64,000 bases of DNA, from contig CAIQKQ010000109.1 in NCBI GenBank assembly GCA_903872425.1, positions 34,810 to 98,809 of the forward strand, read 5' to 3'. This DNA is from an uncultured Opitutia bacterium. GTDB lineage: Bacteria > Verrucomicrobiota > Verrucomicrobiia > Opitutales > Opitutaceae. A program made the translations under genes and the position numbers. Positions 18,827 through 22,082 of this stretch are shown piece after piece. A model generated the notes under the pieces. That model was not told the DNA's origin, did not search any database, and saw only the letters and a list, made by a program, of their open reading frames with translations. Position 1 is the stretch's first letter. Each line of letters begins with the position of its first letter.

Positions 18827-19015
18827 ACGTCGACAGCTTGGCCATCCCGCCCCGCCGCGCAAGCCCGCAGCGAAAAAGAACCCGTCGCCAAGCTAGTTTG
18901 AAGCAGGATACCAAGAAACCAAGGATCAGAATATGCCTCTCATTTTTCGCTGTTTGGCGCTGAGTTTTTCATGGCTTCTTGGCTTCCTGCTTCACCCCCC
19001 AACCTGCTTCGCCCT

Positions 19016-20299
19016 TCACTCCACCCGCAAAATGCAGCCGCGTAGGTATTCGCTCTCGGGCATCGTCACCAGCACGGGATGGTCAGTGGGCTGGTGGCAA
19101 AAATCGAGGATCTGGACGCGGCGTTTCGCGTCGGACGCCGCCTCGGCGAGCACGCTGCGCAGCTCGGCGTCGCCCATATGGTGCGAGCAAGTGTAGGTCG
19201 CTAGCACGCCGCCGGGCGCGAGTGACTTCATCGCTCGCAGGTTGAGTTCCTTGTGCCCGCGTAGCGCGCTCTCGATCGCGCTCTTCGACTTCGCGAACGG
19301 CGGCGGGTCCAGGATAATGAGGTCCCATGCGGGCGCAGCGTCTCGCCGCGCGGTGAACCAGTCGAAGACGTTGGCCAACTCGAAGGCGACCGTCACGCCG
19401 TTGCGCTGGGCGTTGCGGCGGGCGGCCGCGATGGCGTCGTCCGCACTGTCGAGGCCGAGCACCGAGGCCGCGCCCGCGCGCGCAGCGTGCAGTGCAAACG
19501 CACCCTGGTTGCAGAATGCATCCAGCACCCGCTTGCCGGCAGCGTACTTCGCCACGGCGGGGTGCTGCTCACGCTGGTCGAGATAGAATCCGGTCTTCTG
19601 CCCACCCGCGAGATCGAGCCAATAGTCGAAGCCGCCGATGCTCGCCCAGCGCGGTTCCCACGCTTTGCCCGAGCGCGTGTGAATTTCGGCGGGCAGCCCC
19701 TCCAGTTTACGAAGATTTGAGTCGTTGCGAAAAATGATCTCGGTCGCACCGGTCAGCTCGGTGAGTAGATCACCGATGAGCGCGGCGCGTTTTTCCAGCG
19801 CGAGCGTCTGCACCTGCGCGACCAACGTGTCGCCAAACTGGTCCACGACCAACCCCGGCAGCTCATCCGACTCGGCCCATACGAGCCGGCCAATGTAGGG
19901 CGGGGTCGCCGAACCCCGCCGGTCAGTGTCTGCTCCCCGCTGTGTTTTGTTCGCAATGAACGCCTCGGGTGTTGCGGAAGGCAGGTTTCGGCGACCCCTC
20001 CCTATATCACTCTCGCGCCGCGCCAGCGCACGACTGAGCGCCGCGCGCAGCCACTCTGCGTCCAGCGTCACACGCCCCGTCGACAGCCGCCGCCACACGA
20101 TCTGCGACTTTGAGTTATAGATGCCCGTGCCCAATGGTCGACCAGTACGGTCGCGGCAGCCGACAACCTCACCGTCGTGCTCGGCCGGCAACAGTGTCTC
20201 GATCTCGTTGGCAAACACCCAGGGGTGTCCGTGCAGAACACGTGCGCTGGCGGCGTTGGGCTTGAGCTTAAGGGTGGGCAGGACGGGCGTTGACGACAT
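19016..20299 (-). CDS. RlmI-like class I SAM-dependent rRNA methyltransferase with PUA domain, carrying an in-frame insertion
   Basis: PUA-like N-terminus VLHGHPWVFANEI; DLAGGQKTGFYLDQREQ; VLDAFCNQGAFALHAARAGA; LIILDPPPFAKSKSAI; TCSHHMG. Confidence 0.9.
   Translation of the reverse strand: MSSTPVLPTLKLKPNAASARVLHGHPWVFANEIETLLPAEHDGEVVGCRDRTGRPLGTGIYNSKSQIVWRRLSTGRVTLDAEWLRAALSRALARRESDIGRGRRNLPSATPEAFIANKTQRGADTDRRGSATPPYIGRLVWAESDELPGLVVDQFGDTLVAQVQTLALEKRAALIGDLLTELTGATEIIFRNDSNLRKLEGLPAEIHTRSGKAWEPRWASIGGFDYWLDLAGGQKTGFYLDQREQHPAVAKYAAGKRVLDAFCNQGAFALHAARAGAASVLGLDSADDAIAAARRNAQRNGVTVAFELANVFDWFTARRDAAPAWDLIILDPPPFAKSKSAIESALRGHKELNLRAMKSLAPGGVLATYTCSHHMGDAELRSVLAEAASDAKRRVQILDFCHQPTDHPVLVTMPESEYLRGCILRVE
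19893..20006. repeat. Palindromic element inside the RlmI-like CDS
   Basis: Arm 19893-19920 atgtagggcggggtcgccgaaccccgcc versus reverse complement of 19979-20006 (approximately) atatagggaggggtcgccgaaacctgcc: 24/28 identical; ~58-nt spacer; frame preserved. Confidence 0.85.
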
Positions 20300-20414: not shown

Positions 20415-22082
20415 ATGTCACCCGCCGCCGAAATCGCCCGCCGTCGCACCTTCGCGATCATCTCGCATCCCGATGCGGGCAAGACCACGCTTACGGAAAA
20501 ATTCCTCCTCTACGGCAACGCCATCCACCTCGCTGGGGCCGTCAAGGACCGTAAGAACCAGCGCGCCACCACCTCCGACTGGATGGAGCTCGAGAAGCAG
20601 CGTGGTATTTCCATCAGCTCGACCGTCCTCCAGTTCGATTACGCCGGCTGCGCCGTCAACCTCCTCGACACGCCCGGCCACAAGGATTTCTCCGAAGACA
20701 CTTACCGCGTGCTCACCGCCGTGGACGCCGCGCTCATGGTCATTGACGCCGCCAAGGGCGTCGAAACGCAGACGCGCAAACTCTTCGAGGTCTGCCGTCG
20801 ACGCGGTGTGCCGATTTTCACGTTCATGAACAAGTGCGACCGCCCCACGCGCAGTCCGATCGAGTTGCTCGACGAACTGGAAAACGTGCTCGGACTCCAG
20901 GCGTCGCCCGTCATCTGGCCGTTGGGCAACGGCCCGTCGTTCAAGGGCGTGTTCGATCGTCGCACGCGCGAGGTGCATTTGTTTGAGCGCGTGCCGGGCG
21001 GAAAATTTCAGGCTCCCGTGAGCGTCGCCTCGCTCGACGACCCCATTGTTCGCGCCAAGCTCGACGACGATGTTTATCGCGACGTGAAGGAGCAGCTAGA
21101 GATGCTCGACGGCGCGGGCCACCCCTTCGACCTCGCCGCCGTGCAAGGCGGCCGGCAGACCCCCGTCTACTTCGGCAGCGCCGTGAACAATTTCGGCATC
21201 CAGCTTTTACTCGATGGCTTTCTGCGGGACAGCGTCCCCCCCGCCCCTCGCCGCTCACTTTCGATCCAAACTCCTAATTCCAAACTCCAAACGGGAGCAG
21301 ACGCGGCGGAGTCTCGGGTGATCTCGGTCGAAGACCCCAAGTTCTCCGGCTTCATTTTTAAAATCCAAGCTAACATGGATCCGAAGCACCGCGACCGTAT
21401 CGCCTTCTGCCGCGTGTGCTCCGGCAAGTTCGAGCGCGACATGGTCGTCACGCACCAACGCACCGGCAAACAGGTGCGCCTCTCCTCCTCGCACAAACTC
21501 TTCGGCCAGGAGCGCGAGACCGTGGACGAGGCCTGGCCCGGCGACGTCATCGGACTGGTTGGCCACGACAGCTTCGGCATCGGCGACACGCTTACCACCG
21601 ACCGCAGCATCTTCTACGACGAGATCCCGCGTTTTCCATCAGAGGTCTTCAGCTACATCTCCAACCCCAACTCCGGCGACGCCAAAAAATACCGCGCCGG
21701 CTTGGAGCAACTTTTACAGGAAGGGGTGGTACAATCGTTCAACGCCAAAAACGCCCCACCGGGCGCGACCCTACTCGCTGCCGTCGGCCCGCTGCAATTT
21801 GAGGTCGTGCAATGGCGACTCCAAAGCGAATACAATGCCGAGTCGCGGCTCACCCCCACACCATGGACGATGCTCCGCTGGGTCGAGGCTCCCGCCGCCG
21901 AACTCACCCGCGATGGCGCATTGGATTCGACCCGTTACGTTGTCGCCACCGGTGTGAGTTTCGGTGCCGACAAGTTCGGCAAACCCGTTGTGCTCTTCCC
22001 CAACGAATGGACCATGCGCTATTTTCAGGAGAAAAATCCGTCGCTGAAGCTGCACGAGCTACCGATTGAGCAGACGACGTGA
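20415..22082 (+). CDS. prfC: Peptide chain release factor 3
   Basis: IARRRTFAIISHPDAGKTTLTEKFLLYG; WMELEKQRGISISSTVLQFDY; LLDTPGHKDFSEDTYRVLTAVDAALMVIDAAKGVE; MNKCDRPTRSP; FKIQANMDPKHRDR. Confidence 0.96.
   Translation: MSPAAEIARRRTFAIISHPDAGKTTLTEKFLLYGNAIHLAGAVKDRKNQRATTSDWMELEKQRGISISSTVLQFDYAGCAVNLLDTPGHKDFSEDTYRVLTAVDAALMVIDAAKGVETQTRKLFEVCRRRGVPIFTFMNKCDRPTRSPIELLDELENVLGLQASPVIWPLGNGPSFKGVFDRRTREVHLFERVPGGKFQAPVSVASLDDPIVRAKLDDDVYRDVKEQLEMLDGAGHPFDLAAVQGGRQTPVYFGSAVNNFGIQLLLDGFLRDSVPPAPRRSLSIQTPNSKLQTGADAAESRVISVEDPKFSGFIFKIQANMDPKHRDRIAFCRVCSGKFERDMVVTHQRTGKQVRLSSSHKLFGQERETVDEAWPGDVIGLVGHDSFGIGDTLTTDRSIFYDEIPRFPSEVFSYISNPNSGDAKKYRAGLEQLLQEGVVQSFNAKNAPPGATLLAAVGPLQFEVVQWRLQSEYNAESRLTPTPWTMLRWVEAPAAELTRDGALDSTRYVVATGVSFGADKFGKPVVLFPNEWTMRYFQEKNPSLKLHELPIEQTT

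Follow-up and report, generated by a model that had tools for sequence, protein, structure and literature searches.

Intragenic GTAG REPs were reported in 2013, most numerously in Opitutus terrae, by Di Nocera et al. (PMC3733652), who suggest that such copies may be neutral, lying in flexible linkers or loops. The kind of insertion described here, inside an RlmI-family rRNA methyltransferase gene of an uncultured Opitutaceae bacterium, was therefore already known. Our element shares with those repeats the GTAG tag followed by a short hairpin, the head-to-head dimers 20-100 bp apart, the intragenic copies coding for 20-30 residues and the phylum. The main text of that paper makes no mention of methyltransferases, however, and the likeness is drawn from the described features. 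Its sole case of different REPs using the same site is Xanthomonas recB. In the REPIN/RAYT systems (Bertels and Rainey 2011, PMC3116915; PMC8266576), two inverted REPs likewise form a doublet hairpin, and in a genome of the same genus as ours a RAYT gene is flanked by the same REP that makes up the insert. Unlike those extragenic elements, the RlmI insert is intragenic, its spacer is variable, and no close RAYT was found in its own genome. The Rickettsia palindromic elements (Ogata et al. 2000, as cited in PMC3767692 and PMC3733652) are also mobile palindromes tolerated in frame in protein genes. They are tagged with CGTC instead of GTAG, have no known transposase according to the same sources, and are unrelated to the RlmI insert in sequence and lineage. 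A sequence-only reading of this DNA had likened the insert in concept to the rickettsial elements, though in an unrelated lineage and with a different sequence. The concept holds, but the insert is less isolated than was thought, since it belongs to the known GTAG REP/REPIN and RAYT class and intragenic GTAG REPs had already been reported.

A REP doublet in an RlmI-family gene

The features are collected in Table 1, numbered along the window, that is, the whole 64,000-nucleotide stretch analysed. The minus-strand ORF of the host gene has no stop along its whole length, insert included, in agreement with the earlier claim of an open, in-frame segment in an rRNA methyltransferase gene. The best NCBIfam model for the protein is 23SC1962Mtase (300.6 bits, under the curated cut-off of 575), and its PDB relatives are 1wxw and 3c0k. 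At the loop position, solved relatives and the majority of orthologues carry just a few residues, in line with the statement of the sequence-only reading that RlmI-type proteins normally run straight through here.

Table 1. Features of the RlmI-family gene and its insert, in window coordinates
Feature	Position	Strand	Description
RlmI-family rRNA m5C methyltransferase gene	19016-20299	-	carries the insert; 427 aa; PUA_3 and Methyltrans_SAM domains
REPIN insert	19895-20005	-	two head-to-head REPs, GTAG...CTAC; in frame, 111 nt (37 codons), residues 99-135
REP-A copy	19895-19920	+	perfect match to consensus GTAGGGCGGGGTCGCCGAACCCCGCC
Spacer between the two REPs	19921-19979		59 nt
REP-A copy	19980-20005	-	4 mismatches; GTAG now ATAG

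The inverted arms described earlier are present at 19893-19920 and 19980-20007, with 28 nt each and 86% (24/28) complementarity. The gap between them measures 59 nt instead of the ~58 given before, and the palindrome placed at 19893-20006 has the finer element limits of Table 1. No other close inverted repeat of high identity in the window is as long. The arm consensus TAGGGNGGGGTCGCCGAANCCNGCC occurs twice in the window, both times as these arms, where shuffles lead us to expect 0.01, and the insert strand folds far better than shuffled sequences, with z-scores of -4.5 as RNA and -4.8 as DNA. The shuffles, together with multiple copies in the genome, exclude a chance palindrome; a structured RNA of a known family was dismissed, as the insert region has no Rfam match.

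The insertion point lies after codon 98, and removing the insert in silico leaves RR-ESD-IG-RLVW, an ordinary short loop as in most relatives. No target-site duplication, which the sequence-only reading had proposed to look for, is evident at the insert except a possible 2-bp AT. Judged as a MITE, the insert thus has inverted arms and this possible 2-bp AT as its only duplication.

The arms match many partial copies elsewhere in the genome of origin (G000, Opitutaceae bacterium; 85% complete, a draft in 304 contigs), so the possibility that the sequence is single-copy falls away. When the copies are aligned in register, their consensus, REP-A, consists of the GTAG tag and then an imperfect hairpin, with a T immediately before GTAG in 32 of 34 distinct copies; five of its six frames are stop-free. 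A census by pattern search, which is not complete, found 15 copies with at most three mismatches in G000, a modest family for an 85% complete genome. At the same threshold it found 23 in G001, 15 in G003 and 4 in G005, all of the same genus (G003 being a separate, 98% complete assembly), and none in G002 and G004. The reversed-pattern control gave no copies in any searched genome except G002, which had two. REP-A copies are frequently paired in inverted orientation. On one contig (L360:1580-1697, G000 C264), three copies are repeated head to tail every 46 bp.

REP-A is a GTAG REP, with its tag 5' of a short imperfect palindrome and its copies dispersed. The insert combines two REP-A copies head to head and is thus a REP dimer, or REPIN, in which two inverted REPs form one hairpin. 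GTAG REPs are usually extragenic and the RlmI copy is not, but membership remains compatible with this location because intragenic copies are documented for the class.

Filled, empty and differently filled sites

The G003 orthologue (L155) carries a REP-A insert at the same point, 105 nt or 35 codons long, and taking it out leaves RR-GID-IG-RLVW. The 59-nt spacer of our insert is weakly similar to the spacer of this same-site insert (p ~0.015) and to that of no other REP-A dimer. The palindrome is absent from the G001 orthologue. Some orthologues therefore have the insert and others lack it, which answers the earlier concern that all might share the segment. The three species G000, G001 and G003 form an open fork on the tree; REP-A was gained either once, with a loss in G001, or twice.

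Besides REP-A, at least four further dispersed repeat families occupy this loop in other Opitutaceae. G002 and G035 have a different inverted pair, REP-B (GTAGGGGCGCAGNCTTGCTGC...), which has copies scattered over several genomes within the family, as found by searches of genomes other than that of G035 itself. The loop of L157 contains REP-C, present in 130 copies in its genome; those of L160, L167 and G034 contain a CCCTTCGACAGGCTCAGGGC-type repeat and that of G019 a CCTGCGCCAAGGCTTCGGAGGGC repeat. REP-B has 60 copies in G001, 40 in G005 and 25 in G003, with none in G000 at up to two mismatches. The loop also holds (L034, L035) a minisatellite-like AACGGAGAACAGAGAACGGAGGACAGAG in G001 and a TTCCCAACTCCCAATTTCCAATTAC stretch in G021, and the loop sequences of G021, G020 and G001 matched no recognised repeat.

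Insertions of at least 8 residues occur at the loop junction in 20 of 107 orthologues, against 3 of 107 at the next junction, where none is longer than 8. Parsimony counts at least 8 changes of insert state, on a quick tree that was built without the loop and has many weak forks. The peptides inserted in the relatives have neither sequence nor length in common. Since unrelated repeats sit there in related species, the RlmI loop is a recurrent and apparently harmless landing place, and the presence of several unrelated families in one loop is the less expected part of our result.

REPs also lie inside other genes. The histidinol-phosphate aminotransferase gene of G000 contains a REP-A dimer, and residues 187 and 218 of its product align to the adjacent residues 107 and 108 of PDB 3hdo. 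In a SpoU-type methyltransferase, one linker holds a single REP-A in G000, a full REP-A dimer in G001 and the unrelated REP GTAGCCGGGGTCGTCGACCCCGGC in G007 (17 occurrences in 400 kb, control 0); this linker repeats the pattern of the RlmI loop. QueA of G001 has a REP-B dimer inside, its residues 308 and 333 aligning to 269 and 273 of PDB 1vky. Many REP-spanning ORFs, of FabV-like, alanine racemase, ABC_trans_aux, OEP and PSD proteins, were not counted as intragenic because they lack Pfam domain support or have the REP upstream of the domain.

Two further features lie near the gene in the window. The neighbouring prfC (release factor 3) contains a segment SLSIQTPNSKLQTGADAAES at 21243-21363 that differs in G001 and is partly encoded by a repetitive CAAACTCCTAATTCCAAACTCCAAAC stretch, possibly another repeat tolerated in a loop. 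Between two genes, at 18899-18994, there is an inverted repeat whose 23-nt arms are 87% complementary and lie 50 nt apart; it may be a terminator or a further palindromic element.

Origin and fate of the insert

A candidate mobiliser is encoded in G001 (C4:1501-1908). It is a RAYT-family HUH protein (NF047646, 107.9 bits, cut-off 80) that matches the TnpArep of PDB 4er8, and REP-A copies flank its gene on both sides, so the REPIN hallmark of a RAYT gene flanked by its own REP is found within the genus. According to PMC8266576, TnpAREP recognises single-stranded REPs by their GTAG motif and cleaves at CT. By analogy, the REP-A insert was probably moved by a RAYT. Other RAYT genes of the genus have different REPs next to them. 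The RAYT genes L236 (G003 C7) and L238 (G002 C39) adjoin REP types of their own, GTAGGGCGGGGCCGCTGGCCCCGCC and GTAGGGACGCCTCTCCGAGGCGTCC.

We consider it very likely that the insert is a REPIN, probably copied by a RAYT into the inter-domain loop, which survives there because it is tolerated in frame. A single-strand transposase of the RAYT (TnpAREP) type would copy the REPIN into the RlmI loop, which links the PUA-like N-terminal part to the catalytic one and where the insert would persist as a neutral passenger. Its survival would be due to a loop that tolerates extra residues, to the frame being kept and to the mostly stop-free frames of REP-A. What the data show directly is the family of repeats, its dimer form in the insert, the kept frame, the filled and empty orthologues, the REP-A flanks of the G001 RAYT gene and the selection contrast given below. 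Two observations count against this explanation. No RAYT close to that of G001 was found in G000 or in the 98% complete G003. In addition, G000 and G003 agree at all 28 nt of the right arm, at odds with simple neutral drift, whereas the left arm drifts.

An unchanged right arm would suit a hairpin that has been put to use, pausing inter-domain translation or regulating the transcript in its mRNA or ssDNA form, with selection keeping the pairing. The strong fold (z -4.5), the position between domains and the REPs in linkers of several RNA-modifying enzymes are also consistent with such a use. However, the left arm is decaying in both species, with 4 and 2 mismatches that are not compensated, G001 has no palindrome, Rfam gives no match, and not every repeat that replaces it in relatives is a long hairpin. 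We therefore regard a working hairpin as unlikely.

Outside the insert, dN/dS between G000 and G003 is ~0.09 (dN 0.057, dS 0.635); inside it is ~0.67 (dN 0.292, dS 0.438). The RlmI-family gene is under strong purifying selection, and selection on the insert is relaxed. This contrast, and the unrelated peptides of the relatives, make it very unlikely that the protein has adopted the encoded peptide, for example as a binding linker, with its amino acids retained for their own sake, even though the peptide RRGSATPPYIG is the same in G000 and G003. A repeat falsely joined into the gene during assembly or binning, conceivable in a fragmented draft, is hardly credible, since the separate G003 assembly has the insert at the identical codon, the length is an exact multiple of three and unique flanks continue into the repeat on both sides.

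The AlphaFold model has a mean pLDDT of 82 and predicts residues 99-133 as a disordered loop, set between a helix that runs to 102 and a strand from 136, with a pLDDT below 50 that may in part stem from few aligned rows there. Given the dN/dS contrast and this prediction, the enzyme is probably functional and the insert a flexible loop. Most likely, then, the REPIN is a piece of selfish DNA that persists because the linker between the domains is permissive. The earlier idea of a mobile palindrome tolerated in frame is borne out by the multiple copies, the sites with and without the insert, the kept frame and the purifying selection. Five repeat families in one loop, the predicted disorder and the relaxed selection directly support the proposal of Di Nocera et al. 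that intragenic REPs may be neutral when they lie in flexible linkers or loops.

A more tentative and less likely reading is that, in Opitutaceae, unrelated mobile palindromic repeats independently and repeatedly land in the same linkers between the domains of rRNA-modifying enzymes. REP transposition might then be a standing source of change in linker length, possibly guided by a preference, for a DNA target or of a co-translational kind, that goes beyond mere tolerance. The locus is a clear case of mobile REP doublets in conserved enzymes, where related species have the site empty, filled or filled with another repeat, and RlmI-type loops are natural permissive sites for assaying REP insertion and RAYT activity.
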